This document shows, piece after piece, positions 38,843 to 57,919 of a stretch of DNA of 59,840 bases; the first letter of the stretch is position 1, and each line of letters opens with the position of its first letter. The DNA comes from Gammaproteobacteria bacterium (lineage in GTDB: Bacteria; Pseudomonadota; Gammaproteobacteria; Thiohalospirales; Thiohalospiraceae). The notes beneath the pieces are model-generated. The model was not told the DNA's origin and made no database searches. It worked only from the letters and a program-made list of their open reading frames with translations. The stretch is taken from NCBI GenBank assembly GCA_015491735.1, contig WFVH01000001.1, positions 1 to 59,840 on the forward strand, in the 5' to 3' direction. Both the position numbers and the translations under genes were made by a program.

Positions 38843-40741
38843 ATGTTCAGGAAACTGTTAAAAGGAGTCCTGGTCACGGCAGCCATGGTTATGGCTGGCG
38901 CGGCATGGGCTAAATTACCACCCCCACCGGTGAACCAGAATCTCGGGATACCGGACGGGGCCTTTTCAACCATGACAGCCGAAACCTGTCTCGGTTGTCA
39001 CGGAGACCCGGCCAATGCGCCTGCTCCGGTCAAAATCGGCTATCTGCCGGATCGGCACCACCTGCGGGTTGGTACGCCTATCGATCCCGATTACTCCGCG
39101 TCTCCCTATCCAAACCCGGAGTTGACTCACACCTGCTTCACGTGCCACGAAGTCGATGTGGTTGATGATCCAAACTCACCGGATGGGCAAAAGAAGGTTG
39201 TCAATATCGGGAAAGAGAAAAGCGATCCCAATTTCCGTAACTGCATGAGGTGTCATGAACAGAAAACCAATGCAGCAGGGATACTGGAGGCTACGGTTCA
39301 TCATCTGACCGACAAGGCGCAGCGCAAGCAGTGTCATGCCTGCCATGGTAGCCTGATAAACGATCCCACCGACGACCATCGCATCCCCGATCCGGATAAC
39401 AGCGAAAATGCAGCCCGGCATTGCGGCTCCGTTCCCGCTGATGGCGACCGTAATTTTTATGATATTTCCATCATAACGCCGTGGCCGGGTGACTATTATG
39501 ACAATCCAAGTTTCGACTGGAAGAAGCTGCTGAACACGCTCTATGCGGATTGCCCGGACTACGCCAAGCGGTACTACGATCCAGAGGTGCTGGGTGGCCA
39601 GTTCAATATCAATCCGCCGAAGTACAAGTACGAAGTGGATGCTGCTGGCAATATTCAGGCCATAGAGGTGCCGGATGGAGAGCCGGGTGGACGCCGGACG
39701 GGTAATTGCGCGCACTGTCACGACGCAGGCGAGAACCCGGGCGATGCGGTTCAGCCCAATACCGGACTGGCCAAGGCGGATGTCGGCTCGAACAAGAACA
39801 ACCACCATGCAACGGGTGTCGGTCGCGTGGATAGAGGATCGGTGCATTCGTGCACTCTCTGTCACGGCCCTGGCTTCCCGGGAGGAGGAGATCCTGACGG
39901 AAAGCTCAACTTTGACAGTACATCACTTTACAGCATTCGCGGTTGTGAAGTCTGCCACGGTGTTAGCACCTTGCACCTGATCGAGTTTGATGGCGAAGGT
40001 GATGGCATCGATCCGGGGATGGAAAAGCCCTTTATGGGGCATATCGGAAACACCATCAACTGTAACGGTTGTCACCTGAATTTCAGGACGGGGCAGGTCT
40101 ATCAGGCCAGCACGGGTTTGATGGATGGTAACTGGGAATTCGGTGGTGCTCCGGCCACTGTTTCTGAAATCAGCACAGTTGGCGCTATCGCGGGTACCGC
40201 AACCGAGATCTCGATTAAGGGAACGAGTCTGCAAGGCCCCACGACACGTCTGGAGCTGGTTGGAACCGATGGTAACATCATTGAAGTGCCGATGGAGGAA
40301 AACGATAACACCTCCGCAAAAGCCATCCTGCCGGCAGACGTTCCTGCTGACAACTATGAGCTCTATGTGACCAGAGGTACGGGAGACAAGGCGTTACGCA
40401 GTCTTGCCATCGCATTCCTGGTGGCTCCCCAGGTTAGCATAGATAACGTCAGTTGCAGCAACGGAACGGTGACGATCACCGGTAGCGGCTTCGGTAGCGA
40501 CTACGCTGTCGGATCGGATGCGCTTGGTGTCACCGGTGACGGCAGCAGCTGCTCCGTTGACTCCTGGTCCGACACCCAGATCGTCGCTAACTGCGGTGCG
40601 GGAACCGGTAGCGTTACCGTGGGCGGGTTGTTCGGTGAAGCCTCATCCGACGCTGCCTGCGGTGGCACGGATGCTGCTGGCCGGCCGAAATGGTGGTCCA
40701 TCTGGAGCTGGTGGTCCTCCTGGAGCTGGTCGCAGCGGTAG
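38843..40741 (+). CDS. Secreted octahaem c-type cytochrome with TIG-like domain and Trp-rich tail (1)
   Basis: A 632-residue electron-transfer protein. A Sec signal peptide ends AWA near residue 23; the mature protein starts KLPPPPVNQNLGIPD. Eight CxxCH sites begin at Cys 49, 98, 134, 164, 289, 337, 368 and 407. Extra His in DRHHL, VHHLTD, NHHATG and GHIGN could give bis-His ligation. Residues about 435-610 look like immunoglobulin/TIG-type sheets (TVTITGSGFG) with four cysteines shared with the paralogue. The last 16 residues, WWSIWSWWSSWSWSQR, hold seven Trp. The haem part recalls outer-surface cytochromes of Geobacter-like bacteria, from memory only. Role in extracellular electron transfer is inferred. 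Confidence 0.88.
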   Translation: MFRKLLKGVLVTAAMVMAGAAWAKLPPPPVNQNLGIPDGAFSTMTAETCLGCHGDPANAPAPVKIGYLPDRHHLRVGTPIDPDYSASPYPNPELTHTCFTCHEVDVVDDPNSPDGQKKVVNIGKEKSDPNFRNCMRCHEQKTNAAGILEATVHHLTDKAQRKQCHACHGSLINDPTDDHRIPDPDNSENAARHCGSVPADGDRNFYDISIITPWPGDYYDNPSFDWKKLLNTLYADCPDYAKRYYDPEVLGGQFNINPPKYKYEVDAAGNIQAIEVPDGEPGGRRTGNCAHCHDAGENPGDAVQPNTGLAKADVGSNKNNHHATGVGRVDRGSVHSCTLCHGPGFPGGGDPDGKLNFDSTSLYSIRGCEVCHGVSTLHLIEFDGEGDGIDPGMEKPFMGHIGNTINCNGCHLNFRTGQVYQASTGLMDGNWEFGGAPATVSEISTVGAIAGTATEISIKGTSLQGPTTRLELVGTDGNIIEVPMEENDNTSAKAILPADVPADNYELYVTRGTGDKALRSLAIAFLVAPQVSIDNVSCSNGTVTITGSGFGSDYAVGSDALGVTGDGSSCSVDSWSDTQIVANCGAGTGSVTVGGLFGEASSDAACGGTDAAGRPKWWSIWSWWSSWSWSQR

Positions 40742-41270: not shown

Positions 41271-43067
41271 ATGGCTGGGGGTACCGTGCGATTTCTCATG
41301 TTGGTTTTTTCTGCCCTGTATGTGGACTCTGCTGCTTGGGCCGGTACTCCTCCACCGCCAGTCAATCAATACCTTGGTATTCCTGATACAACGTTCAACG
41401 AGATGACAACCGATATCTGCCTCGGTTGTCACGGAAGTCCGGCTGAAGCGGTTGCTCCGGTCAGGGCGGGCTACCTGCCGGATCGCCATCATCTGCGTCT
41501 TGGCACGCCTATTGGCGAATTTTCCGCCTCTCCCTTTCCTGAAAAGTCGGCCGATGGCAAACACAACTGTCTTACCTGCCATCTGCTGGAGTGGGTATCT
41601 GATGCGTCTGAACCAAACGGGGGTGTTTTCCGCTACGCCAACAACCGTGACTGCATGAGTTGTCATATTCAGAAAGTAAACCAGCGAGGTGAGCTGATTG
41701 CAACGGTTCACCACCTGACTGACTGGGCGCAGAACGCAAACTGTCACTACTGTCACGGGAGCCTGATTGATGATCCCAATGGCGACCACCGGATACCCGA
41801 TCCCGCCCGTTATCCAGATGATAAAGAGAATCACTACGATATTTCGTTGACGACTCCCTGGCCTGGTAGCGGATTTTATGAGAGCCGGGTTCAGCTGCGC
41901 CGGGCGCTCGAGGCGAGTTTCTCCTACAAGCTGGATATCCCCCATGCACCCACAGATGAGCAGGCCAGAGGAAAAGAGAGCGCGTTAGCTCAAATCAATT
42001 ATATAATGGACAATTTCGACCCGCCGATCGGAGAGACCGGCCGGCCTATGGGCAACTGCGCCTATTGCCATTTTTCCGGTATCGATGATGTTGGCGGACG
42101 GGTTATCGATGTCAACTACGCTACTCACCATGGAACCGGGGTGGGGCAGCCTGGCAGTGGCTCTGTTCACAGTTGTGACCTTTGCCATCGGCCCCATGCG
42201 CCTCCCGGATTTACAATTCGGGGTTGTGAACGGTGTCACGGTATGGGTTCATTGCACCGCATTGAGTATGATGCTGATGGTGATGGCATTGTCGTTGGGG
42301 GAGAGGCGCCCTACTTTGGTCATATTGGCAATCAAAAAAATTGTGATGGCTGCCACAGGAACTCGCCGCAAGAGACAATCTTGATAAGCGACGACGTTCC
42401 TTTTTCCGGTACCGCCATTGTTCCCGACATTCAGAAAACAAGTGATACGGGCATGGTTGCCGGCACCGATAGCCGGCTGTTCCTGAGTGGTTCCGGGTTC
42501 ACCAGCAAGGCGGCCACCTTAAACAGTGCTGTGGAGGAAAGCCTCTCTACCACCTTGCGGCTGGTAAATATGAACGGGAAAACCGTTGAGCTTCTCCCGG
42601 ATTTTCTGTCCGATACCTATCTGGAGGTAACCCTGCCGGCGGATCTGCCCGTTGGTAGTTACAGGCTGGCGGTGGCCAGGCAAGGGGCTTTGTCCGACAA
42701 AATTCTGGTCAGTCGGCCAATCAGCTTTTTGGTAAAGCCAAAAGTGGCCATTCAATCGGTCGATTGTAAAGACGGCATTGTCACTGTTTCAGGCTCCGGT
42801 TTTGGCAACTACCTTGATTCAGGAGGGAGTGGAACAGCGGTTACCAGCGGGGACGGGATGGCGGTATGCACCGTCGATTCCTGGACCGATGACAGAATTA
42901 CAGCACACTGCTCCTCGGGTGTCGGGGATTCGATTCGGGTAAGTAGTGTGTTTGGCGCAACGACAGCTGGCGTGGAGTGCAAAACCGCCGCTTCGTCCCG
43001 GGGGAAACAGGGCAGATGGTGGTCGATCTGGGGTTGGTGGTCCTCCTGGAGCTGGTCTCTCCGTTGA
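41271..43067 (+). CDS. Secreted octahaem c-type cytochrome with TIG-like domain and Trp-rich tail (2)
   Basis: Paralogue of the gene at 38843, 598 residues from ATG 41271 (GGGGGG upstream); ATG 41232 would add 13 residues. The signal peptide ends AAWA, then GTPPPPVNQYLGIPD. Eight CxxCH sites: CLGCH, CLTCH, CMSCH, CHYCH, CAYCH, CDLCH, CERCH and CDGCH. Shared blocks include YLPDRHHLR, TVHHLTDWAQ, DDPNGDHRIPDP and GHIGN. The TIG-like C-terminal half has KVAIQSVDCKDGIVTVSGSG and four matched cysteines. The tail WWSIWGWWSSWSWSLR is 14 of 16 identical to that of paralogue 1. Likely a partner or alternative form for the same surface electron path. Confidence 0.88.
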   Translation: MAGGTVRFLMLVFSALYVDSAAWAGTPPPPVNQYLGIPDTTFNEMTTDICLGCHGSPAEAVAPVRAGYLPDRHHLRLGTPIGEFSASPFPEKSADGKHNCLTCHLLEWVSDASEPNGGVFRYANNRDCMSCHIQKVNQRGELIATVHHLTDWAQNANCHYCHGSLIDDPNGDHRIPDPARYPDDKENHYDISLTTPWPGSGFYESRVQLRRALEASFSYKLDIPHAPTDEQARGKESALAQINYIMDNFDPPIGETGRPMGNCAYCHFSGIDDVGGRVIDVNYATHHGTGVGQPGSGSVHSCDLCHRPHAPPGFTIRGCERCHGMGSLHRIEYDADGDGIVVGGEAPYFGHIGNQKNCDGCHRNSPQETILISDDVPFSGTAIVPDIQKTSDTGMVAGTDSRLFLSGSGFTSKAATLNSAVEESLSTTLRLVNMNGKTVELLPDFLSDTYLEVTLPADLPVGSYRLAVARQGALSDKILVSRPISFLVKPKVAIQSVDCKDGIVTVSGSGFGNYLDSGGSGTAVTSGDGMAVCTVDSWTDDRITAHCSSGVGDSIRVSSVFGATTAGVECKTAASSRGKQGRWWSIWGWWSSWSWSLR

Positions 43068-45103: not shown

Positions 45104-46024
45104 ATGACGAAGACATATCTGGACAGAGCGGTTATGCTGTTTTTTCAGCAACAACAGGCGCGGTTTACCGCCTGGATGATGGTGCTGCTCGTATTGGTGC
45201 TTGCTTACAGCGTGGCCCAGCTTACCTGGTTGTTGGTTCCCGCCCCGGATGCGGGAGAGGATGACGCGCCGCGGCAGCCACAGATTTTGCCTCAATCAGA
45301 CAGTATGAAAAAATTGCCGGCAGCTCCCGATCTGGCGGGTTTGCATCTGTTTGGAATGGCCACTGCAAATGAGAAGGCTTCATCCGCTGTTATAGAGGAC
45401 GCGCCGGACACCCGTTTGCGATTGATACTGCGTGGTGTCTTCGCCACGCGTGACAAGACGATGGCCAGAGCAATCATTTCCGAGCCGGGGGGCGAAGAGA
45501 AATATTATGCCGTTGATGATGAACTGCCGGGTGGTGCGGTTCTCAAGGAGATTGCGGCTGATCGCGTGATTCTGCAGAGCCGGGCCGGCCGGATGGAGAC
45601 CCTGCGCCTGCCGAAAGAGTTTGGTGGCAGTGGGCGGCCGGCAAGGAATACCGCGTCGGCGCGGGTGGAGAGGAGGCCGGCTGACAGAAACAGGATCGTC
45701 CCGCGTGTTTCTGCCGGGGAGCTGCGGGACTACCGCGACAAGATGCTTACCAATCCGCAGGAGCTGGTGGGTTTGATTCGTACCCGCCCGGTCAAGGAGG
45801 GTGGCCAGATTAAGGGGTACAAACTATTCCCGGGCAAGGACCGGGCGCTGTTCAACCGGCTGGGGCTGCGCTCTGGCGATGTTATAGTCAGTATCAACGG
45901 AATGGAGCTGGGCGATCCCGCAACCGGATTGGCCCTGCTTGGACAGCTCTCCAGTGCTACCGAAATGAACGTGGTGGTGGACCGCCGCGGTCAGCGGCAG
46001 ACCGTTACGCTGTCGCTTCAGTGA
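45104..46024 (+). CDS. gspC: Type II secretion protein GspC
   Basis: An inner-membrane subunit of 306 residues linking the platform to the secretin. A short cytoplasmic start and one membrane helix (WMMVLLVLVLAYSVAQLTWLL) are followed by the homology region (HLFGMA... LRLILRGVFA) that binds GspD N0, and a C-terminal PDZ domain (FNRLGLRSGDVIVSINGMEL) used in substrate choice. First gene of the gspC-N operon. ATG 45134 is an alternative start. Confidence 0.93.
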   Translation: MTKTYLDRAVMLFFQQQQARFTAWMMVLLVLVLAYSVAQLTWLLVPAPDAGEDDAPRQPQILPQSDSMKKLPAAPDLAGLHLFGMATANEKASSAVIEDAPDTRLRLILRGVFATRDKTMARAIISEPGGEEKYYAVDDELPGGAVLKEIAADRVILQSRAGRMETLRLPKEFGGSGRPARNTASARVERRPADRNRIVPRVSAGELRDYRDKMLTNPQELVGLIRTRPVKEGGQIKGYKLFPGKDRALFNRLGLRSGDVIVSINGMELGDPATGLALLGQLSSATEMNVVVDRRGQRQTVTLSLQ

Positions 46025-46121
46025 GTACGAGTAACCGATGAATCAACCACTAATCACAGGGTTTCACCACATGCCTTTGTTATCGAACCAGCGACTTGCC
46101 GAGAAGAAAGAGGGTGGGTTC

Positions 46122-48257
46122 ATGGGTGCCATGCCATCGCTACTGGCATTGTGCCGCTTTTTTGTTTGCGCGGCTGTTTTCTCCTTGCTGGTCAATTCTC
46201 CGCTGCAGGCCGAGGATGAAGAGGTAACGCTCAATTTCAAGGATGCCGATCTGAACGTTGTTATTCAGACCGTCGCAGATATTACCGGCAGGAATTTTGT
46301 TATCGATCCCCGCGTCAAGGGAAAGGTTACCGTCGTATCTTCCCGTCCCATGCAGGCCGATGAGCTTTATCAGGTGTTTTTGTCCGTGCTCGAAGTGCAT
46401 GGGTTTGCCGCTATTCCCGATGGGGATACGACACGGATCGTACCGGCCGCCAATGCCAAACAGGCAGGATTGCCCGTGGTTACCGGCTCACGTGCGGGTG
46501 TGCCGAGCAATGATATGGTCACGCAGGTTGTGCAGGTTGAGCATGTTTCCGCTGCGCAACTGGTTCCGGTTCTCAGGCCGCTGGTGCCTCCACAGGGGCA
46601 CATGGCAGCCTATCAGGCGACCAATACGCTGATTATTTCAGATCGGGCGGCCAATGTTGTCCGGTTGCGCAAGATCATCCGCAATATTGACCGGCCGGGC
46701 AGCAGCGAGATAGAGGTCATTCGCCTGCTGCACGCTTCTGCCGCCGAGGTGGTGCGTATTCTCTCCTCTCTGCAACAAAAAGGGGGAAAGGGCAAAGCTC
46801 CGGGTGGAGCGCAGGGGGCCATGTTTGTTGCCGATGAGCGTACCAACAGCATTTTGCTGGGAGGCGATCCGGCAGAGCGGATGCGTATGCGCAGAATCAT
46901 TGCCGAACTGGATACGCCGATGGAGGTTGGCGGGGGCAATACCCAGGTGGTCTATCTGCGTTACGCAAAGGCGGTTGATTTGACAAAGGTGCTGATGGGA
47001 ATCAGCGAAGCGGAAAAGAAGGCGGCCCAGCAACAGCCGGGTGGCGCGGCAGGTGGCAACGTTAAAAAAGCGGCGCAGCGCGCGGCTTCCCCCACCGCTG
47101 GAGGTGGCCGCGCGGTGATGGAAAATGTCAGCATCCAGGCGGACGAGGGAACCAATGCGCTGATTATCACGGCTCCACCCGACCAGTTTCGCTCACTGCA
47201 GGCGGTTATTTCCAAACTGGACATCCCCAGAGCCCAGGTGCTGGTGGAAACCATTATCGCCGAGGTGTCGATGGACAGAAAACGGGAGTTGGGGATAGAG
47301 TGGGTTGTCGACGGCACCGCAGGTGGAACCCGTTCCAGCACCGCCCCCATTGGAACGATCGATTTTGGCGGCATCAGCGGTCTGGCCAAAAATGTCGCCA
47401 GCGCCCAGGCCAAAGCCGGTACAGGCCTGGATCTTAGCAGCGGTCTGTCGATGGTGATAGGGCGGGTTGGCGGGGGAGGTACCGATTTTGGCATGCTGTT
47501 GAGGGCGTTGACATCGGATGGCAGCACGAATGTGTTGTCGACACCAAATATCGTAACCATGGACAACGAAGAGGCCGAGATCGTCGTTGGCGAAAACCGC
47601 CCCTTCGTTACCGGATCGTTTACCAATACCGGCAGTGGCTCGACCCCTACCAACCCGTTTCAGACTATCAAACGCGAGGATGTGGGTCTGAAGCTCAAGG
47701 TGCGGCCCCAAATAAACGAAGGCAGTGCCGTCAAGCTGGAGATCGAGCAGGAGATATCCAGTGTCAGTCAGGACTCGGAGCTTGGCCCCTTCACCAACAA
47801 ACGCTCCATTAAAACCAGCGTCCTGGTGGACAATGGCAGGATTCTTGTGCTGGGCGGGTTGATCGACGACACCATGGATGTAGTCGAGCAGCGTGTGCCA
47901 TTGCTGGGAGACATACCGGTACTGGGCTGGCTGTTTCGCTACAACAAGACCGTCAAGAAAAAGCGGAACTTGATGGTGTTCATGCGGCCGGTCATTTTAC
48001 GGGACAATGCGACCATGCACCGGCTAACGAGCGAAAAATACAACTATATCCGCGGAGAGCAACTGGAGATTCGCAACAGCCTCTCTTCACTGATGAGCGC
48101 GGAGGATACGCCGTTGATGAAAAAGATGTCCGATCTCCCAACATTGCCACCGCCATTCGAAGAGACCGCGCTGGGCAGGCAGACAAAGTTTCTGCAAAGA
48201 GCCCCCCGGAGTGAAGCGCTCTCGCCACTTCCCGGCGACCTGAATCGCATGCGCTGA
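46122..48257 (+). CDS. gspD: Type II secretion secretin GspD
   Basis: The outer-membrane channel. Signal peptide FFVCAAVFSLLVNSPLQA precedes N0 (VTLNFKDADLNVVIQTVADI), N1-N3 repeats with a Gly/Ala/Lys-rich insert near 47030-47110, and the secretin core ending in VPLLGDIPVLGWLFR and LMVFMRPVILRD. A C-terminal S-domain-like segment could bind a pilotin; none is encoded here. I start at ATG 46122, which gives a normal signal-peptide length; ATG 46038 would add 28 polar residues. The stop overlaps gspE by one base. Confidence 0.95.
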   Translation: MGAMPSLLALCRFFVCAAVFSLLVNSPLQAEDEEVTLNFKDADLNVVIQTVADITGRNFVIDPRVKGKVTVVSSRPMQADELYQVFLSVLEVHGFAAIPDGDTTRIVPAANAKQAGLPVVTGSRAGVPSNDMVTQVVQVEHVSAAQLVPVLRPLVPPQGHMAAYQATNTLIISDRAANVVRLRKIIRNIDRPGSSEIEVIRLLHASAAEVVRILSSLQQKGGKGKAPGGAQGAMFVADERTNSILLGGDPAERMRMRRIIAELDTPMEVGGGNTQVVYLRYAKAVDLTKVLMGISEAEKKAAQQQPGGAAGGNVKKAAQRAASPTAGGGRAVMENVSIQADEGTNALIITAPPDQFRSLQAVISKLDIPRAQVLVETIIAEVSMDRKRELGIEWVVDGTAGGTRSSTAPIGTIDFGGISGLAKNVASAQAKAGTGLDLSSGLSMVIGRVGGGGTDFGMLLRALTSDGSTNVLSTPNIVTMDNEEAEIVVGENRPFVTGSFTNTGSGSTPTNPFQTIKREDVGLKLKVRPQINEGSAVKLEIEQEISSVSQDSELGPFTNKRSIKTSVLVDNGRILVLGGLIDDTMDVVEQRVPLLGDIPVLGWLFRYNKTVKKKRNLMVFMRPVILRDNATMHRLTSEKYNYIRGEQLEIRNSLSSLMSAEDTPLMKKMSDLPTLPPPFEETALGRQTKFLQRAPRSEALSPLPGDLNRMR

Positions 48258-49798
48258 TGACAGAGTTGGTTGCCCAGGCTGAGTATGAGATGGAGGCCGT
48301 TTCCGGCGGCAGGGAGGATGTTGCGCAACAGGTAATGCAGTTGCCGTTTCCGTTTGCGCGCCGGCATGGCGTGTTGATTACCGGTGTTGGCGAGCATGGT
48401 GCGAACGTGTTGTGTAAAAGAGGCGCCTCTCCCCTGATTTTAAGCGAAGTGCGCCGGTTTGCCGGCATGCCGCTGCAATTGGAGCGGGTCGATGATGAAC
48501 AGTTCGAACAGGTGCTGCAGCAACTCTATGAAAGTGGCAGTGGCGAGGCCATGCTGCAGATGGGGGGGCTGGATGAGGAGATGGATCTGGCCAGTGTTGC
48601 CCAGCAACTGTCCGAGCCGGAGGATCTTCTGGAGAGTGAAGATGACGCTCCGATTATCCGGTTGATCAATGCACTGTTTACCGAAGCGGTCAAGGTTGAT
48701 GCATCGGATATCCATATTGAACCCTTTGAGCGCCGTTTGCGGGTGCGGTTCCGCGTTGATGGTGTGCTCCGGGATGTACTGCAGCCGAACCGCGCATTGG
48801 CTCCGCTTCTGGTATCCCGCATCAAGGTCATGGCCAAACTGGATATCGCCGAGAAGCGGATTCCACAGGATGGCCGCATTTCGCTGCGTATTGCCGGCCG
48901 GGCCGTGGATGTGCGTGTCTCCACCCTGCCGGGCGGGAATGGAGAGCGAGTGGTGATGCGTCTGCTTGACAAGCAGGCGGGCCGGCTGGATCTGGAGCAT
49001 TTGGGGATGCCGGCGGCTACCCGGGAGGCGATCGATCATCTTATTCATCGTCCCCACGGCGTTATTCTGGTTACCGGTCCCACCGGTTCCGGCAAGACCA
49101 CAACGCTCTATGCGGCGGTAACCCGGCTGAACAGCTCCAGCCGTAACATCCTTACCGTGGAAGACCCCATTGAATACTATCTGGACGGTATCGGGCAGAC
49201 CCAGGTGAACACCAAGGTGGATATGACTTTTGCACGCGGTTTGCGGGCCATTCTGCGCCAGGATCCGGATGTGGTCATGGTCGGCGAGATCCGGGATCTG
49301 GAAACAGCGGAGATCGCTGTTCAGGCCAGCCTGACCGGCCACCTGGTGCTCTCAACCTTGCATACCAACACCGCGGTTGGGGCGGTAACCCGTTTGCGTG
49401 ATATGGGGGTCGAATCCTTTCTGCTGGCTTCCAGTGTGGTTGGCGTGCTTGCACAGCGCTTGGTGCGCGGGCTGTGCCCCCACTGCAAGCAGGCCCATGC
49501 TGCCAGTGAAGCGGAGTGCGGGCAACTTGGCGTGCCCCCAGACCGCGCACCCGTCATCTATCGTCCCAAAGGTTGCAAACAGTGCAACCAGCAAGGTTAT
49601 GTTGGCCGCCGGGGGCTTTATGAGCTGGTTGTGTTCGACGAAAGCATGCGTACGCTGATCCATGAAAACGCCAATGAACAGGAACTGGAAGCCCATGCCC
49701 GCAGCCACTCCCGAAGTTTACGGGAAGAGGGGATGCTGGCGGTGCTGGAAGGCCATACCAGTCTGGAAGAGGTGTTACGGGTAGCTGAGGAGGTCTGA
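48257..49798 (+). CDS. gspE: Type II secretion ATPase GspE
   Basis: A cytoplasmic hexameric ATPase of 513 residues. The Walker A is GPTGSGKTTTLYAA near residue 273, with the Asp box VEDPIEYYLDGIGQTQV and Walker B VVMVGEIRDLETAEIA. A zinc tetracysteine element CPHC...CKQC (about 406-442) is characteristic of GspE/PilB. Its N-terminal domain would contact GspL. Next to gspD; a 180-bp gap separates it from gspF. Confidence 0.97.
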   Translation: MTELVAQAEYEMEAVSGGREDVAQQVMQLPFPFARRHGVLITGVGEHGANVLCKRGASPLILSEVRRFAGMPLQLERVDDEQFEQVLQQLYESGSGEAMLQMGGLDEEMDLASVAQQLSEPEDLLESEDDAPIIRLINALFTEAVKVDASDIHIEPFERRLRVRFRVDGVLRDVLQPNRALAPLLVSRIKVMAKLDIAEKRIPQDGRISLRIAGRAVDVRVSTLPGGNGERVVMRLLDKQAGRLDLEHLGMPAATREAIDHLIHRPHGVILVTGPTGSGKTTTLYAAVTRLNSSSRNILTVEDPIEYYLDGIGQTQVNTKVDMTFARGLRAILRQDPDVVMVGEIRDLETAEIAVQASLTGHLVLSTLHTNTAVGAVTRLRDMGVESFLLASSVVGVLAQRLVRGLCPHCKQAHAASEAECGQLGVPPDRAPVIYRPKGCKQCNQQGYVGRRGLYELVVFDESMRTLIHENANEQELEAHARSHSRSLREEGMLAVLEGHTSLEEVLRVAEEV

Positions 49799-49978
49799 AA
49801 CATGATTCTGCAGCACCCGCCCGGGCGGGCAGAAGTGATACGCTGGTAGTCCGATGTCTCCCCTCCCGGTATTGCCAACCTGGCAACCCTGCATGCCGTA
49901 CCCGGATCCCCTGGTATCCGCCGGATCGGCGGGCGGTAGTCAGGCAATGGTCGTTTGTCATTCGCGAGGAAGTCGCTG
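49799..49978. other. Unusual gap inside the gsp operon
   Basis: 180 bp between gspE and gspF, whereas nearly all later gsp genes overlap. It holds the palindrome CCGCCCGGGCGG near 49817 and a TTGCCAACCTGGCAA hairpin near 49874. No open frame with a ribosome site is longer than 15 codons. It could be an mRNA processing or attenuation site. Confidence 0.45.
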
Positions 49979-51193
49979 ATGGGTGCGTTCGAGTATCAGG
50001 TGCTGGATGGCAGCGGGCGGGAGCGCAAAGGGGTCATGGAGGGTGATACAGCCCGCCAGATTCGTCAGCAGTTGCGTGACAAGGGGTGGACCCCCCTTTC
50101 GGTCGAGGCAGTGGAGCAGCGGGAGGCGCGGCGCAAAGGCGGGTTTTCCCTGCGGCGGGGGATCAGCGCCACCGAACTGGCGCTGGTTACCCGCCAGCTC
50201 GCCACCTTGGTACAGTCTGGCATGCCGGTAGAGAGCGCACTGGCTACCGCGGCCGAGCAGTCGGAAAAGATGCGCCTGAAAAAGATCATTCTTGCGGTGC
50301 GCGCCAGGGTGCTGGAGGGGCATACCCTTGCCGATGCACTGAAAGAGTTTCCCCATGTGTTTCCCGATCTCTACCGTTCCACCGTCGCGGCCGGCGAGCA
50401 CTCCGGCCATCTGGAGGCGGTGCTGGGGCGGCTTGCAGATTACACGGAAAGCCGGCAGGCCCTGTCGCAAAAGATGGGGCTGGCGATGATCTATCCGGCT
50501 TTGATGATCATTGTGGCCATTTTGGTGGTCGTGGTGCTGCTGGCCTATGTCGTTCCGCAGGTGGTGGGTGTATTCGATAACATCGGCCAGGAACTGCCGC
50601 TGCTTACTCGCGGTTTGATCGCTGTCAGTGACTTTCTCACCGCCTGGGGCGTAGCTCTTTTGGGGTTGATCGTCGTGTCCGTTACCCTGTTCAACCTGCT
50701 GTTGCGCAAAGAGCGGTTTCGCAGTGTCTACCATCGATGGCTGTTACGGGTGCCCCTGGTGGGGCGGCTGGTGAGAGGGCTGAATACCGCACGTTTTGCC
50801 CGCACTTTCAGTATTCTCAGCGCCAGTGGCGTCCCCGTACTGGAGGGAATGCGCATTGCGGCCGAAGTAGTAACCAATTTGCCCATGCGCAGGGCGGTGG
50901 ATGAGGCGGCGCGCCGGGTCAGGGAGGGATCCAGTATCAACCGGGCGTTACACAAAAGCGGTTTTTTCCCGCCAATGGTCGTTCACCTGATCGCCAGCGG
51001 TGAGGCGAGCGGAAATCTGGATGAAATGCTGGAGCGGGCCGCCACCAGCCAGGAGCGGGAGCTGGAGACGGCGGTTTCTGCACTGATGGGGGTGCTGGAA
51101 CCCGCGTTGATTCTGGTGATGGGGGTTGTTGTTCTGGTGATTGTTCTGGCGATTTTGCTGCCAATATTCGATATGAACCAATTGGTGCACTGA
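49979..51193 (+). CDS. gspF: Type II secretion platform protein GspF
   Basis: The inner-membrane platform protein, 404 residues, with two repeated cytoplasmic helical domains and three membrane helices (LMIIVAILVVVVLLAYVVPQ; WGVALLGLIVVSVTLFNLL; LEPALILVMGVVVLVIVLAI). Conserved PMRRAVDEAARRVREGSSI and SGEASGNLDEMLERAA. AGGA lies before ATG 49979 (MGAFEYQVLDGSGRERKG); eight codons of extra frame upstream are ignored. Confidence 0.96.
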   Translation: MGAFEYQVLDGSGRERKGVMEGDTARQIRQQLRDKGWTPLSVEAVEQREARRKGGFSLRRGISATELALVTRQLATLVQSGMPVESALATAAEQSEKMRLKKIILAVRARVLEGHTLADALKEFPHVFPDLYRSTVAAGEHSGHLEAVLGRLADYTESRQALSQKMGLAMIYPALMIIVAILVVVVLLAYVVPQVVGVFDNIGQELPLLTRGLIAVSDFLTAWGVALLGLIVVSVTLFNLLLRKERFRSVYHRWLLRVPLVGRLVRGLNTARFARTFSILSASGVPVLEGMRIAAEVVTNLPMRRAVDEAARRVREGSSINRALHKSGFFPPMVVHLIASGEASGNLDEMLERAATSQERELETAVSALMGVLEPALILVMGVVVLVIVLAILLPIFDMNQLVH

Positions 51194-51229
51194 ACGGCCC
51201 AAGGGACATTCTTTGTAAAATATTGTGAG

Positions 51230-51688
51230 ATGACTGAGATGAAAAACAAGATGATCAAGCCCCGTCGTGGCGCACAGGGGTTTACTTTGATTGAGGTTAT
51301 GGTGGTTGTCGTGATTTTGGGAATCCTTGCCGCGGTGGTGGTGCCGCGGATCATGGACAGGCCGGATACGGCGCGTGTAACCAAAGCCCAGCAGGATATC
51401 CGGGTGCTGGAAGGGGCGTTGAATCTGTACAAACTGGATAACCATTTCTATCCTAGTACCGAACAGGGGCTGGACGCCCTGGTGAAAGAGCCCAGTGGCG
51501 ACCCCGAACCGCGCAACTGGAAGCAGGGTGGCTATATCGATCGGCTGCCGCTCGATCCTTGGGGCAACCCTTATCAATACCTTAACCCGGGTGCCCATGG
51601 ACCTGTCGACATCTACTCCCTTGGCGCCGATGGCCAGTTGGGGGGTGATGGTGTCGCCGCCGACATCGGGAACTGGAATCTGGAGTGA
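51230..51688 (+). CDS. gspG: Type II secretion major pseudopilin GspG
   Basis: A 152-residue prepilin; cleavage between Gly17 and Phe18 in AQGFTLIEVMVVVVILGIL, with Glu at +5. The globular part has the calcium-loop type ending GQLGGDGVAADIGNWNLE. Main subunit of the pseudopilus. It needs a prepilin peptidase (GspO/PilD), which is not in the window. Overlaps gspH by 4 bp. Confidence 0.97.
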   Translation: MTEMKNKMIKPRRGAQGFTLIEVMVVVVILGILAAVVVPRIMDRPDTARVTKAQQDIRVLEGALNLYKLDNHFYPSTEQGLDALVKEPSGDPEPRNWKQGGYIDRLPLDPWGNPYQYLNPGAHGPVDIYSLGADGQLGGDGVAADIGNWNLE

Positions 51689-52284
51689 GCTCAAACCGGC
51701 TCAAAAGCCGCCGGCGCCGGCGTGGGGCAAGGTTTGCCGCGTACGGATTTACCCTGATAGAGCTTCTGGTGGTGCTGGTTATTATCGGTATCATCCTTGG
51801 CTTTGCTTCGCTTTCCGTCGACAGTGGCGGCCTGGATCGCCGGGCAGAAGAGGAGGCGCGGCGGTTCACGGCCCTGATCAAACTGTTCCGGCAGGAGGGC
51901 ATTCTGAAAAACCGGCAGTTGGCGTTGCGGATATATCCGGACCGGTACGAATTTCTGCAGCTGATGGGCGACGAATGGCAGCCGGTTGAGGGGGATGAGA
52001 CCTTCCGTACCCGCAAGTTACCGGCAGAGTTGCGTTTCGAGCTGGAGGAGATGGCAGCCGGACAAGCCCTTGCAGACAGTGAAAACCAGGACGGCAGTGA
52101 AGATGAGAGGGATGCTGTCATGCTGTTTTTTCTCTCCAGCGGCGAGAGCACCCCTTTCGAGATGCGCATCAAAGGTGGAGAAGATACGGATTATGTGGTG
52201 ATTGGCGACACCTTGGGGGAACTGGATATCCGAAACAGCAAAGACAAGGATTTTGCGGAGTGGTTGGCGGGCAGTGAGTATTGA
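51685..52284 (+). CDS. gspH: Type II secretion minor pseudopilin GspH
   Basis: A 199-residue minor pseudopilin with GTG start (GTGA overlap with gspG). A very basic leader (SRRRRRGARF) and Gly21 come before FTLIELLVVLVIIGII with Glu +5. The C-terminal part is acidic and somewhat longer than usual because of a Gln/Asp/Glu-rich loop around residues 130-145. Confidence 0.9.
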   Translation: MSSNRLKSRRRRRGARFAAYGFTLIELLVVLVIIGIILGFASLSVDSGGLDRRAEEEARRFTALIKLFRQEGILKNRQLALRIYPDRYEFLQLMGDEWQPVEGDETFRTRKLPAELRFELEEMAAGQALADSENQDGSEDERDAVMLFFLSSGESTPFEMRIKGGEDTDYVVIGDTLGELDIRNSKDKDFAEWLAGSEY

Positions 52285-52678
52285 AGCCGGAAAGAGTTCT
52301 TCCGTTGTAATTGGCGGAGTACGGGGATTTACACTACTGGAGGTGATGGTCGCTCTGGCCGTGCTGGCCATTTCACTTGGAGCCCTGAGCAAGGGGGTTA
52401 GCAATTATCTTGGCAATGCCTCTTATCTGCAGGATCGGACGTTGGCCACCTGGGTGGCCGAGAACCATGTTACCGAGTTGCAGATTATGCAGTCCTGGCC
52501 AAAAGTGGATACAACCAAAGGTTCCGTGCAGATGGCAGGGCGGGAATGGTACTGGGTGCAGCGGGTAACGGCGATCGATGGACGCCCGGAGATCCGCCAG
52601 GTGCAGGTACAGATTTTTGCCCAACCGGACGCCAGGCGCCCATTGGCAACGTTGATCTCCCTGCTTGGACAGCCATGA
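52274..52678 (+). CDS. gspI: Type II secretion minor pseudopilin GspI
   Basis: A 134-residue tip pseudopilin. Cleavage after Gly18 in VRGFTLLEVMVALAVLAIS. Later TWVAENHVTELQI and GREWYWVQRV are typical GspI features. I start at GTG 52274, overlapping gspH by 11 bp; the frame upstream has no leader-like sequence. Overlaps gspJ (ATGA). Confidence 0.92.
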   Translation: MSIEAGKSSSVVIGGVRGFTLLEVMVALAVLAISLGALSKGVSNYLGNASYLQDRTLATWVAENHVTELQIMQSWPKVDTTKGSVQMAGREWYWVQRVTAIDGRPEIRQVQVQIFAQPDARRPLATLISLLGQP

Positions 52679-53313
52679 AAGCGAGGGACACATCGGCTTC
52701 TGTGGCCGGTTTTACGCTGCTGGAGTTACTGATTGCCCTGGCCATTTTTGCCATTCTTTCCAGTTTGGCTTACGGTAGCTTGCGTTCGGCGCTGTTTAAC
52801 AGGGAACAGAGCCAGCTGCGTACTGAACAGTTGACCCAGCTGCAGATGGCGCTTTTGTTCATCAGCCGGGATCTGGAGCAGGTGGTCAACCGCCCCGTCC
52901 GTAACACATACGGTGATACTCAGCGGCCGCTGCTTACACCGCAACAGACTTATCGTCTGGAGTTTACCCGCGGTGGCTGGAACAATCCGGGGCAAAGAGG
53001 GCGCAGCACCCTGCAGCGGGTTGCCTATGCTGTCGAAGAGGGCGCATTGATTCGTTACAGCTGGCGGATGCTGGATCGCACAGATGAAAAACCGGCACTG
53101 AGGCAGCTGCTGCTGGACGGGGTGACCGAGTTCGAACTGCGTTTTCTCGACGAGAGAAAAGAGTGGCGCAAGGAGTGGCCGGCGCTGAATGCTGAAGATA
53201 CAGCGCAACGGCCGTTGCCGGTTGCCATTGAGCTGACGCTGGAGCTGCAGGAGTGGGGTCGTATTCGCCGCCTGTACCGGTTACCGGCCGTGCAGCCGCA
53301 AGGAGCGGATTGA
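52675..53313 (+). CDS. gspJ: Type II secretion minor pseudopilin GspJ
   Basis: A 212-residue minor pseudopilin. Cleavage after Gly12 in VAGFTLLELLIALAIFAIL. The family stretch FISRDLEQVVNRPVRN is present. It forms the pseudopilus tip with GspI and GspK. The start overlaps gspI by 4 bp; the end overlaps gspK by one base (TGATG). Confidence 0.94.
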   Translation: MKARDTSASVAGFTLLELLIALAIFAILSSLAYGSLRSALFNREQSQLRTEQLTQLQMALLFISRDLEQVVNRPVRNTYGDTQRPLLTPQQTYRLEFTRGGWNNPGQRGRSTLQRVAYAVEEGALIRYSWRMLDRTDEKPALRQLLLDGVTEFELRFLDERKEWRKEWPALNAEDTAQRPLPVAIELTLELQEWGRIRRLYRLPAVQPQGAD

Positions 53314-54314
53314 TGGGTGCTGCCGGCCAGCGGGGGATAGCATTGATCACGGCCGTACTGATCACAGCGCTGATTGCGATTATTGCCGTGACCATGATTT
53401 CCGAACAGCAGCTGGATATTCGCCGCACCGGTAATATTCTGGATCGCACCCAGGCATTACAGTTTGCGCTGGGCATGGAGACCATCGCCTTGCTGGGGCT
53501 GCGCAAGGACCTGGACAACAACCAGACAGATCACAGAATGGAGGACTGGAACAAGCCGGTTCAATTTCCAGCACCGGATGGCGCCGAGGGCGACATGATC
53601 AGCGGACAGATTGAGGACTTGCAGGGACGATTCAACCTCAACAACCTGGTTGATCGGGACGGGAAAATCGACCCGGAACAACTAGAGCAGTTCAAACGGC
53701 TGTTGACGCAGCTTGAGCTGTCGCCCGGTTTGGCGGCAAGGGTAGCGGACTGGATCGACAGGGACAGCACGCCCCACGGGATGGATGGAGCCGAGGATGA
53801 TGAGTACACCCGGCTGGATCCCGCCTATCGCACGGGTAATACCCTTTTGGTGAGTCCCAGCGAACTGTTGCTTGTCATGCCGGCGGAAGCGTACCGGAAG
53901 CTGGAGAAATATGTAGCAGCCCTGCCGGGGCCGGAGCAGACCAAAATCAACCTCAATACCGCGTCGCGGGAGGTGCTGGCTTCGCTCGAATACGTGACGC
54001 TGGAAGATGTCGATGAGCTTCTGGCGCAGCGGGAGCAGTTGGAAAAGCAAAGCAACAGAGGGTTTGCTAGTATTGACGATGTTTTTGAACTGCCAGGGTT
54101 CCGGGCGTTGCGGGGAAGGCAGGGCGCGTTTGAGCAATACATGAACGATTGCTGTACGGTAGAGAGCAATTTTTTTCTGGCCAACATCTTCGCCCAGTTC
54201 GATAAAGGAGAAGTGACACTGCGCTCCGTTATTCAGCGCAAAGCCGCCTCTTCCACCGCAGCCAGCCAGACACAGAGCGTGTTTACTGTATTGCGAACCC
54301 AAGGAGACTATTGA
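53313..54314 (+). CDS. gspK: Type II secretion minor pseudopilin GspK
   Basis: A 333-residue tip protein that caps the pseudopilus. Leader QRG then IALITAVLITALIAIIAV without Glu at +5, as is normal for GspK. The large alpha domain follows: DLQGRFNLNNLVDRDGK and INLNTASREVLASL are typical, with two metal-site regions in known structures. Confidence 0.95.
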   Translation: MGAAGQRGIALITAVLITALIAIIAVTMISEQQLDIRRTGNILDRTQALQFALGMETIALLGLRKDLDNNQTDHRMEDWNKPVQFPAPDGAEGDMISGQIEDLQGRFNLNNLVDRDGKIDPEQLEQFKRLLTQLELSPGLAARVADWIDRDSTPHGMDGAEDDEYTRLDPAYRTGNTLLVSPSELLLVMPAEAYRKLEKYVAALPGPEQTKINLNTASREVLASLEYVTLEDVDELLAQREQLEKQSNRGFASIDDVFELPGFRALRGRQGAFEQYMNDCCTVESNFFLANIFAQFDKGEVTLRSVIQRKAASSTAASQTQSVFTVLRTQGDY

Positions 54315-54317
54315 TTG

Positions 54318-55535
54318 ATGGATAAACTGCTTATCCACTTGACCGACGCCGAGCAGGTCGAATGTTTGCTGGTTTCGGAGCATCCGCCTTCCGCTCAGCA
54401 GATGAAGATATCCCTGGCCGACGCGGCAGGTCACGGGCAAGGCCGGCAGGTGATCGTGCTGGTTCCCTCCGAACAGGTAATTCTGACAGAGGTTGCCGTG
54501 CCTACCGCCAACCGGCAGCGTCAGCGGCTGGCGGTTCCCTACCTGCTTGAAGATCTGCTGGTGGCCGATGTGGATCAGCTCCATTTTGCCCTGGGGAGCT
54601 ACGAGGATGGGAAAGTCGCCGTCGCCGTGGTAGCGCACGAGCAGATGCGGCACTGGATGGAGCAGTTGGCCAAGGCCGGCATCCAGCCCAAGTTCATGGC
54701 GCCGGACGTGCTTGCCCTGCCGCTCCGTGAGGAGGCGTGGAGCGTCGCGTTGACCGGAGACATGGCAACGATCCGCACCGGGCTGCAAAGCGGGTTCAGT
54801 TGTGATGCTGACAATCTTCCCCTGCTTTTGGATCAGGCGTTGCAACTGGCGGAGAACGGCCGGCCTGCCTGCCTGCAGGTGGTTGATTGCCGTGAGCAGA
54901 AGGATGTTTCGCTGGAATCACTGCTTCCGCCGGTGATGGAGTATCGTCCTGAAGCGTGTGACAACGGTTTTTTGCAGCTGTTGGCGGCCTGTTTCAATGA
55001 AGAGTTCCGGCCCCCGATCAATCTGTTGCAGGGGCAGTACAGCCAGCGTGAGCGGTTGAGCAAGTTGTGGCGTCCCTGGCGTCCGGTGGCGGCTCTGCTG
55101 GTTGCATTGCTGATAGTGCAGGGGGTGAAGGCGGGTGTGGAGTACCGGCGGTTGAGCGCGGAGAATGAGCAACTGGTCAAGCAGGTCGGGGAGGCATTCC
55201 GTCAGGGGTTTCCGGATATTAAACGCATCGTCAATCCCAGATTGCAAGCCGAACGCCGCTTGGAGTCTTTGCGGGGTGAAGGAGGGGGGGCGGATTTCCT
55301 CTCTCTGCTCGCGCGGGTTGGGGCGGTATTGCAGCGGGTGTCCGATGCCCGGTTGCAAGGCATCAACTACAAGGCGGGCCAGTTGATTTTGGGTATGCGG
55401 TTGAAAAACCTGCAGCAACTGGACAAGCTGGAGCAGCAGTTGAAGCAGGAACCGGCCCTGGTGGTGGAGGTGTTGTCAGCATCTTCCCAAAACAAGCATG
55501 TCGAGGCGCGCATCAAAATAGGGGCTGGACAATGA
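54318..55535 (+). CDS. gspL: Type II secretion protein GspL
   Basis: A 405-residue bitopic protein that ties GspE to the membrane. An actin-like cytoplasmic domain (residues 1-240) has VPTANRQRQRLAVPYLLEDLL. One membrane helix (RPVAALLVALLIVQGVKAG) follows, then a periplasmic ferredoxin-like domain. ATG 54318 is preferred over TTG 54315. Overlaps gspM by 4 bp. Confidence 0.93.
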   Translation: MDKLLIHLTDAEQVECLLVSEHPPSAQQMKISLADAAGHGQGRQVIVLVPSEQVILTEVAVPTANRQRQRLAVPYLLEDLLVADVDQLHFALGSYEDGKVAVAVVAHEQMRHWMEQLAKAGIQPKFMAPDVLALPLREEAWSVALTGDMATIRTGLQSGFSCDADNLPLLLDQALQLAENGRPACLQVVDCREQKDVSLESLLPPVMEYRPEACDNGFLQLLAACFNEEFRPPINLLQGQYSQRERLSKLWRPWRPVAALLVALLIVQGVKAGVEYRRLSAENEQLVKQVGEAFRQGFPDIKRIVNPRLQAERRLESLRGEGGGADFLSLLARVGAVLQRVSDARLQGINYKAGQLILGMRLKNLQQLDKLEQQLKQEPALVVEVLSASSQNKHVEARIKIGAGQ

Positions 55536-56038
55536 AGGGGGCAGAGCAGATTGCGGCGTACTGGCAGGGGCTGCAACCGCGTGAAAGGGTTGTGCTGGCC
55601 GTTGGGGGCGTGGTGGTGCTTTTGCTATTCAGCTATTTTTTGGTTTGGCAGCCGATTGTAAACGCCAGGGCGGAGATGCAACAGGAGGTTCAGCAGCAGC
55701 GCGCCCTGCTGGAGTGGATGAAAAGCGCGGCCGCTGAAGCGAAGTCGCTGCGTGGAGTGGACGGACAGCGCGTGAAAGGGCTGGGCGGCCAGTCTCTGTT
55801 GTCACTCGTCGACCAGTCGGCCAAGGAGCAGGGGCTGGGTAGCGCCATGAAGCGGGTTGAGCCAGATGGTAAACAGGTGCGGATCTGGTTTGAGGCGGCC
55901 AGTTTTGATCAGTTGATCGGCTGGCTGGAAAAACTGGCCCTGAAAAATGGCGTCAGAGTGGTCAATGTAACCATCGACCGCACTGATAAACCGGGGCGGG
56001 TTGATGCCAGGCTCCGTGTCGCGGAGGGTGGCGGGTGA
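55532..56038 (+). CDS. gspM: Type II secretion protein GspM
   Basis: A 168-residue inner-membrane subunit that dimerises with GspL. A short cytoplasmic start (YWQGLQPRERVVLA), one helix (VVVLLLFSYFLVWQPIV), then a coiled region and small periplasmic fold ending in VNVTIDRTDKPGRVDARL. Overlaps gspN by 4 bp. Confidence 0.93.
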   Translation: MKGAEQIAAYWQGLQPRERVVLAVGGVVVLLLFSYFLVWQPIVNARAEMQQEVQQQRALLEWMKSAAAEAKSLRGVDGQRVKGLGGQSLLSLVDQSAKEQGLGSAMKRVEPDGKQVRIWFEAASFDQLIGWLEKLALKNGVRVVNVTIDRTDKPGRVDARLRVAEGGG

Positions 56039-56799
56039 AAAAATGGATACGCTATTTGCTATTGGGCGTGGTGGCTTATGGCGCCTTTCTTGCGCTCACT
56101 TTCCCGGCAGCTTACGCCTACCGGCTGATTCATGAGCAGTTGAATGGAGTTCAGATGGGCGGCATCGAAGGTACCGTCTGGTCCGGTTCAGCCAGGACTC
56201 TGGGAATAAACGGGTTCTATCTGCAAAACGTAGGCTGGGAAATGCGCTTTCTGCCGCTGTTGCTGGGCCGCCTGGAATTAAAACTGGATAGTACCGACAA
56301 AGAGTTCAGGTTCAGCACCTATGCTGGCCGGACGCTGGGCGGGAAGGTCTATCTTCGCGGTTTTCAGGGGCAGTTCCCGGTTGCCTCACTGCAGGCGTTG
56401 ACACCGTTTTCTGTGCCTGCAGTGGGGGGAGAGCTGGTTTTCGACGCGCTGGATGTTGGTCTGGCCGACGGGAAATACCTTGAAGGCGCGGGTAATATCT
56501 TCTGGAAAGAAGCTTCGGTAACCGTCGGCTCGCCTCTTGAGCTTGGTGGATTTGCCGTCGAGTTGAAAACAGAAGAAAAAGAGATTACCGGCATACTGAA
56601 GGACACCGGTGGGCCGCTTCGGGCAGAAGGCGTGTTGAAACTCTCTCCGGAAGGGAGTTACCACTTCAGCGGGCGATTTACTCCTCGCAATGGAGAAGAG
56701 GGGGAACTTGCCCGGAATTTACGCATGTTAGGCCCCCCCGATCCGGCGGGCAGCTATGTGCTTGAATACACGGGGCAGCTGCCGGCGCCGGTGTTGTAG
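56035..56799 (+). CDS. gspN: Type II secretion protein GspN
   Basis: A 254-residue protein with GTG start and an N-terminal helix (YLLLGVVAYGAFLALTFPA). The AsmA-like GspN hallmark QLNGVQMGGIEGTVWSGSA is followed by a beta-rich periplasmic part ending QLPAPVL. GspN is found in only some T2SS and its role is unclear. It closes the operon. Confidence 0.9.
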   Translation: MKKWIRYLLLGVVAYGAFLALTFPAAYAYRLIHEQLNGVQMGGIEGTVWSGSARTLGINGFYLQNVGWEMRFLPLLLGRLELKLDSTDKEFRFSTYAGRTLGGKVYLRGFQGQFPVASLQALTPFSVPAVGGELVFDALDVGLADGKYLEGAGNIFWKEASVTVGSPLELGGFAVELKTEEKEITGILKDTGGPLRAEGVLKLSPEGSYHFSGRFTPRNGEEGELARNLRMLGPPDPAGSYVLEYTGQLPAPVL

Positions 56800-56881: not shown

Positions 56882-57049
56882 CACCTGCCGGGTAAACAAT
56901 AGTATTAGACCTCATCTTCAGGTGCGTATAGAATCCCCCCGGAATCCAGGCATGCTTTCCGTCTTGTCGATGTTCGCTTTATTATATGGATAACAATTTT
57001 CCCTGTTCAGGGGAGATTATCACCCACTGTGTGTTATGGAGTTTCTGAG

Positions 57050-57919
57050 ATGAGTTTTCCATCTGCGGAGTTACGGGAATACTTTGTTGCGATACGTAGC
57101 AACAAGACATTTGAGATGACAGTGATTGCCATCATTATCCTGTCGGCAATGCTGATAGGGGCAACCACCTACGATATCAGCCCCTTTTGGCTTGACGTGC
57201 TCGGGGTCTTCGATATTGCCGTTACGCTGTTTTTTCTTGCAGAAGTGCTTATCCGGATAGCTGCGGAGGAGAAGGCGCGTAACTTTTTCAAAAACGGCTG
57301 GAACGTTTTCGATTTTACCATTGTAACCGCCAGCCTGATTCCTGTCGATGAGAGTCAGATGGTGCTGCTGGCGCGGTTATTGCGCATTTTTCGTGTATTG
57401 CGTCTGATCTCCATCATTCCCGAGTTGCGTGTTTTGATGAATGCCCTGGTCAAGGCGATTCCCCGCATTGGCTATGTGGCTCTGCTCATGTTTATCCTTT
57501 TCTATGTCTACGGGGCATTTGGCAGTTTCTTTTTCGAAGAGATCAATCCCGTATTGTGGGGCGATATCACGATTGCCATGTTGACCCTGTTTCGCATTGC
57601 TACGTTTGAGGATTGGACCGATGTGATGTATGAAACGATGGAATTCTACCCCCTTAGCTGGATGTTCTATATCAGTTTTATTTTTCTGACAGCCTTTGTG
57701 TTTCTGAACATGATGATTGGTGTCGTGATCGATGTGATGCAAAAAGAGCATGAAAAGTTCGATCGGGAGCATGGCGAAGGGGAGGCGGGTGAAGTGCACT
57801 GGATTCGGGAGCACACCGAAATAATGGAGCAACGAATGGAGAGGATGGAAAATCTGCTCGAAGAGATAGCAGAGACAAAAGCCGGAAGACAGGTTCCTGA
57901 AAAGGGCTTTCGTCAATGA
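57050..57919 (+). CDS. Single-domain voltage-gated cation channel (NaChBac/BacNav-like)
   Basis: A 289-residue channel subunit, expected to form tetramers. Helices S1-S6 are visible. S4 has Arg 109, 112, 115 and 118 spaced by three (RLLRIFRVLR). The pore loop reads TLFRIATFEDWTDVM with filter TFEDWTD at residues 185-191, where NavAb has TLESWSM. The acidic pattern resembles the calcium-selective engineered CavAb (TLDDWSD). A C-terminal acidic stalk and heptad coiled coil (MEQRMERMENLLEEIAE) match BacNav. ATG 57050 has GGAG upstream. Ion choice is inferred only from the filter. Confidence 0.9.
   Translation: MSFPSAELREYFVAIRSNKTFEMTVIAIIILSAMLIGATTYDISPFWLDVLGVFDIAVTLFFLAEVLIRIAAEEKARNFFKNGWNVFDFTIVTASLIPVDESQMVLLARLLRIFRVLRLISIIPELRVLMNALVKAIPRIGYVALLMFILFYVYGAFGSFFFEEINPVLWGDITIAMLTLFRIATFEDWTDVMYETMEFYPLSWMFYISFIFLTAFVFLNMMIGVVIDVMQKEHEKFDREHGEGEAGEVHWIREHTEIMEQRMERMENLLEEIAETKAGRQVPEKGFRQ

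Follow-up and report, generated by a model that had tools for sequence, protein, structure and literature searches.

A tryptophan-rich C-terminal tail shared by OmcZ-like cytochromes and unrelated exported proteins in two lineages of Gammaproteobacteria

Introduction

The described systems closest to the tail considered here are the C-terminal sorting tails of exported proteins, and the described protein closest to most of its carriers is the Geobacter cytochrome OmcZ. In the GlyGly-CTERM/rhombosortase/type II secretion (T2SS) system, the tail (TIGR03501) is a C-terminal suffix on unrelated exported proteins, with a short Gly-containing motif, a hydrophobic stretch of ~14 residues and a basic end. 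GlyGly-CTERM proteins are known rhombosortase substrates (PMC3237569, PMC6219818), and the founding paper also includes three genomes that have a rhombosortase without a recognised target, for which divergent targets were suggested (PMC3237569). GspN reportedly serves lipid-bearing T2SS cargo (PMC12802150). The PEP-CTERM/exosortase and MYXO-CTERM/myxosortase systems likewise have tails built from a motif, a hydrophobic part and basic residues at the end. The OmcZ precursor carries tandem Ig domains at its C-terminus, a region that is removed before filaments form and is absent from the filament (PMC9473688), and the genes reported to go with OmcZ nanowires include those for a subtilase (OzpA) and a prolyl isomerase (PMC9473688, PMC11208441).

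Two tailed octahaem cytochromes and their neighbourhood

The window, the whole stretch of 59,840 nucleotides that was analysed (contig WFVH01000001.1), contains two OmcZ-like octahaem c-type cytochrome genes on the forward strand, and the parts of the cytochrome genes and the secretion operon given below lie on that strand. Cytochrome 1 (38843..40741; 632 aa) begins with a putative Sec signal peptide, MFRKLLKGVLVTAAMVMAGAAWA (38843..38911), recognised by eye in the translation, and contains eight CxxCH motifs and a C-terminal Ig/TIG region, within which residues 537-592 (40451..40618) match the IPT/TIG domain (PF01833, E=1.2e-6). A GRPK lead motif (40679..40690) and the 16-residue Trp-rich tail WWSIWSWWSSWSWSQR (40691..40738) follow, so that the C-terminus reads ...GRPKWWSIWSWWSSWSWSQR, with the stop codon at 40739-40741. 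Cytochrome 2 (about 41271..43067, the start being taken as the Met before a signal-peptide-like stretch) also has eight CxxCH motifs, and ends in a diverged lead motif, KQGR (43005..43016), which aligns with GRPx, and the tail WWSIWGWWSSWSWSLR (43017..43064), directly before the stop codon. Both tails are in frame with the haem motifs. As the initial annotation had it, the two proteins share the C-terminal end WWSIWxWWSSWSWSxR, with 14 of 16 residues identical, seven Trp in each and a final Arg.

The two cytochromes have the full-length similarity, the eight haems and the C-terminal Ig/TIG region of the OmcZ type. A phmmer comparison aligned residues 3-188 and 288-601 of cytochrome 1 with the OmcZ precursor (8d9m) at E=3.3e-30, and the likeness lies in the octahaem domain and the Ig-like C-terminal region. 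The match ends at residue 461 of the 473 in OmcZ, however, and no W-tail follows there. OmcZ also has a CX14CH haem motif, whereas cytochrome 1 has an ordinary CxxCH (CFTCH) near that place, and all eight haem motifs counted are CxxCH. No subtilase or PPIC-type isomerase gene was found beside the cytochromes in the window, but in three other genomes of the genus (G005, G006 and G002) tailed cytochromes adjoin genes for a subtilase of family S8 and a prolyl isomerase of the PPIC type.

Downstream of the cytochromes lies a complete-looking type II secretion operon, gspC-gspN (45104..56799), in which GspC, D, E, F, G, H, J, K and L score over NCBIfam cut-offs and GspN matches PF01203; it is a candidate export route. 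The gene order cytochromes-moaA-SDR-gspC is also kept in a second species (G005), and the linkage of a T2SS to tailed genes is seen in these two genomes only. An Ion_trans family channel gene directly follows the operon (57029-57919).

Distribution of the tail

The tail is not limited to the two genes in which it was initially described. When WWxxWxWW was searched as DNA in the host genome, it was found at eight places, whereas the reversed pattern, used as a control, gave none. Six of these places represent the tail or a decayed copy of it, namely the ends of four octahaem cytochromes and of an amidase-like protein, and a single decayed fragment. The fragment (G000:C37:58924-58974; L006 / L256) repeats the C-terminal end of the amidase, tail included, in decayed form, and lies outside any long gene.

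A search of 369 genomes of the class with a profile of the tail detected a second lineage, namely two genomes from a single genus outside the host's order, each with five tails of the form GRPDWWSLWSWFASWGWSGR. The total is 40 distinct tailed proteins in 10 genomes: all eight genomes of the host's genus, with three to five tails each, and both genomes of the second genus. The tail was not found in four genomes from the two other genera of the host's family, a sample of 398 genomes from the phylum added nothing convincing, and viral contigs gave no match to the two-lineage tail pattern. A scan of public genomes using only the W codons returned, among the matches listed, TGG repeats in other frames and one true tail, L071, in Chromatiales bacterium isolate 354-166. 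The tail has thus been found in two lineages, both of the same class, its absence elsewhere being sampled and not proven.

Conservation and selection

The first Trp lies exactly 16 residues before the stop in 40 of 40 proteins, in a count for which a match at positions 1 to 8, W[WF]xxWxW[WF], was sufficient. Columns were counted with a stricter pattern fixing five Trp and the final Arg, which again gave a set of 40, so that none was lost, and in this set the terminal Arg is present in 40/40 and a penultimate Arg in 25/40. Internal in none of the real genes and not freely variable between close species, the tail has a mean pairwise identity of 77%, compared with 65% for GRPx and 15% for the linker residues -32 to -21. 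The lead-in had been taken as unconserved, which is correct for this linker and incorrect for GRPx, where Pro is found in 38/40, Arg in 35/40 and Gly in 33/40 proteins; cytochrome 2 of the window is among the few exceptions. The motif therefore starts at GRPx, giving a 20-residue unit, GRPx + WWxIWxWWSSWSWSxR-COOH. The fixed Trp register and the invariant terminal Arg suggest sequence-specific reading.

Since Trp is encoded by TGG alone, and repeats of this triplet are found in many genomes, a low-complexity artefact, or the inherited C-terminus of a single gene family, might be proposed. The chance of either is negligible, given the zero control matches in the host genome, the reading frame shared with eight haem motifs, the unrelated carriers and the scrambled synonymous codons; on these four grounds the low-complexity explanation was rejected. 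When amidase tails are set against cytochrome tails from their own lineage, synonymous differences affect 72-77% of the non-Trp codons that encode the same residue, which indicates selection on the peptide and not the DNA, and rules out recent DNA copying of the tail. Comparisons of the non-cytochrome tails with the cytochrome tails of their own lineage gave values of 0.80-0.85, against 0.57-0.66 with those of the other lineage. This agreement within lineages is as expected of a shared, lineage-specific reader, and local duplication or gene conversion could be an alternative source of it.

Carriers of the tail

Most carriers are OmcZ-like cytochromes, and in the sample of 369 genomes from the class no genome without the tail has an OmcZ-like protein. 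These two observations would fit a tail specific to cytochrome nanowires, acting as a subunit-docking or filament-stacking element or as an electron-hopping Trp wire. The same tail is found, however, on an Amidase_3 protein, an M23 peptidase and a polysaccharide lyase, which are non-homologous exported proteins, and the OmcZ filament lacks the C-terminal Ig domains, that region having been removed before filaments form (PMC9473688). The stacking of subunits into filaments, put forward in the initial annotation, is accordingly disfavoured, and a nanowire-specific role of either kind appears improbable. The Amidase_3 carrier occurs in two species, its Pfam score being weak and just below the cut-off for the one scanned. 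The tailed lyase adjoins a tandem paralogue, 38% identical, that has no tail, which is the classic suffix behaviour of sorting signals.

The W-tail is thus a suffix common to unrelated exported proteins and missing from some of their homologues, as CTERM-type tails are, and the earlier view of it as a module of its own, placed as sorting tails are, is borne out by its C-terminal position in 40 of 40 proteins, its non-homologous carriers and its absence from the tandem paralogue. Judged from these sequence comparisons, it is a genuine C-terminal module, selected and transferable, found on exported proteins of both lineages.

Several related proteins were noted near the carriers. The S8 subtilases adjoining tailed cytochromes (L278:17836-19314, L282:8870-10384 and L254:4729-6153) have the cytochromes' OmcZ-type C-terminal region and decaying W-tails (KWWVIENWWSSKR, KWWLIESWWSSWH and KWWLMENWWSSWRWFHR). 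Some shortened OmcZ-like proteins have no more than three CxxCH motifs but keep a whole or partial tail (L280:11719-12885, L284:8607-9965 and L029). In both lineages, a cytochrome-like protein of ~200 aa, whose Gly-rich end has a Cys as its last residue or beside it, is encoded upstream of tailed cytochromes (L270:11649-12257, L278:15057-15698, L282:12594-13214 and L286:8652-9212).

Comparison with described tails

No W-tail was among the TIGR03501 matches in 15 genomes at E<=10, and six W-tails searched alone against this model gave no match, while in that search a canonical GlyGly tail from G000 reached 17.8 bits. The tails alone matched no model in the NCBIfam and Pfam libraries, PEP-CTERM models included, and a search of open papers for Trp-rich CTERM sequences returned nothing relevant. 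The statement that no named tail resembles this one holds within those sources, and the W-tail appears to be a member of no described tail family in NCBIfam, Pfam and the open papers searched that could be tested.

The GlyGly-CTERM tail is the nearest in layout, and the W-tail shares its basic C-terminal residues. In place of the GG/SGGS of GlyGly-CTERM the W-tail has GRPx, without the Gly-rich signature, and in place of a Leu-rich transmembrane helix it has a Trp/Ser core; it differs further in its fixed length and Trp register, in matching neither the model nor the profile, and in having other cargo within the same genomes.

It could also be imagined that the tail is a PEP-CTERM variant processed by exosortase, which is present in seven of the ten tail genomes. 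Exosortase was not found in three genomes with the tail (G001, G003 and G007), although these are metagenome-assembled genomes, 85-91% complete, so that the absence weighs little. The W-tail also matches no model of either the PEP-CTERM or the MYXO-CTERM type and has neither the PEP motif of the one nor the invariant Cys of the other, and processing by exosortase is very improbable. One PEP-CTERM-like protein was seen in G005 (L282:13892-14497; VPIPPAALLFGSALVGLAALRRKK), and exosortase, rhombosortase and W-tail coexist in that genus.

Chemistry and predicted structure

The following sums use values of published scales. For the 14-residue Trp core, the summed water-to-interface energy is about -12 kcal/mol, compared with -6 for GlyGly-CTERM cores from the same genomes, whereas the octanol sums are similar (-12.0 and -10.7, respectively) and the flat Hessa sum is +6.4 for the tail core and -0.2 for the GlyGly cores. 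By the Hessa sum the Trp/Ser core would make a poor transmembrane segment, which argues against a bilayer-spanning helix; the core should seek the membrane interface. An AlphaFold model of cytochrome 1, built from a 12-sequence alignment, has a mean pLDDT of 46, and only the Ig region, a predicted beta-sandwich around the IPT/TIG domain with the best pLDDT of the model, is confident. For the tail, which follows an unstructured linker, the model has a helix of very low confidence.

Such chemistry raises the question of whether the tail needs a partner at all. Trp-rich membrane-active peptides, such as indolicidin, are free, interface-seeking peptides dense in Trp and Arg. The W-tail resembles them in its dense Trp and Arg, but belongs, as a conserved suffix, to large exported proteins. 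It might act in a similar manner as a plain anchor, with seven Trp in the interface of the outer leaflet and Arg on a phosphate and no enzyme or receptor involved, and the strong interfacial partition energy and the low-confidence helix behind a flexible linker are consistent with this. A generic anchor would not need the exact length, the invariant Trp spacing, the conserved Ser and Gly positions or a terminal Arg in all 40 proteins, nor would it need lineage-wide co-variation of tails; a plain anchor is therefore rather unlikely, and the excess of constraint points to a protein that reads the tail.

Candidate machinery

Rhombosortase (TIGR03902) scores over the cut-off in 10 of 10 tail genomes, and in none of the four tailless members of the family, where G008, G009 and G011 have scores of ordinary rhomboids and G010 has none. 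Some 0.3 kb separates the rhombosortase gene of G003 from a tailed gene, but no other tail genome has the two side by side. It is possible, then, that the tail is a divergent rhombosortase substrate, cut near GRP and with lipid added to the new C-terminus, as in GlyGly-CTERM proteins such as VesB of Vibrio cholerae. The same layout (a short Gly/Pro motif, a hydrophobic stretch of ~14 residues and a terminal Arg), the same class of cargo (exported hydrolases), the presence of a T2SS and the divergent targets proposed in the founding paper (PMC3237569) are all compatible with this.

Canonical GlyGly-CTERM proteins are present in the tail genomes, however, and already account for the enzyme, so that its co-occurrence does not tie it to the W-tail. 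The carriers of the two tails do not overlap, and no convincing homology was found between them. Rhombosortase also scores over the cut-off in G315, from a tailless sister genus. An hhalign comparison of the W-tail profile with GlyGly tails of the same genomes gave no similarity (probability 0.1), and the absence of a TIGR03501 match and of a GG cleavage motif, together with a core that is poor as a transmembrane segment, also weighs against processing by rhombosortase, which is regarded as a doubtful though still substantial alternative.

Proposed role of the tail

The 20-residue tail is probably a modular C-terminal sorting signal for Sec-exported proteins, read by a partner in the envelope, with its carriers held at the surface, most likely after type II secretion. 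A signal peptide would carry the precursor across the inner membrane, and the flexible linker would leave the tail free to sink its Trp side chains into the membrane interface, while the Arg at its end would contact lipid phosphates or fit a pocket of the partner. A lineage-specific partner, whether rhombosortase or another factor, would then bind or cut at the tail, and the T2SS would move the folded protein out. An OmcZ-like precursor may be tethered by its tail until an OzpA-type subtilase removes the Ig/tail region, freeing the haem domain to polymerise. As to what happens to the tail, retention uncut as a receptor-bound or interfacial anchor is somewhat favoured; cutting by an intramembrane protease, with a lipid anchor replacing the tail, is less probable but deserves serious consideration. 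The earlier suggestion of an export mark or outer-membrane anchor stands as a possibility, in that the chemistry fits and this kind of role is supported, with partner and cleavage both putative.

A more specific version, held only tentatively, is that a dedicated reader, neither rhombosortase nor exosortase, recognises the seven Trp in their fixed arrangement together with the final Arg, and would gather matrix enzymes, hydrolases of the cell wall and nanowire precursors at a single site in the envelope, in which case the tail would define the site of nanowire assembly or export.

Significance

C-terminal sorting tails are one bacterial way of holding exported proteins at the surface, and the known families have led to new enzymes. 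The tail described here most likely represents an undescribed address label for surface-held exported proteins, which would work as CTERM tags do. What is new is its Trp/Ser chemistry, which departs from the usual Leu-rich transmembrane helix of such tails. Its main carriers are OmcZ-type nanowire cytochromes, for which the retention of the precursor, its release and the assembly of filaments are poorly understood, and a tail that is short, nearly invariant and transferable offers a direct experimental handle on them.
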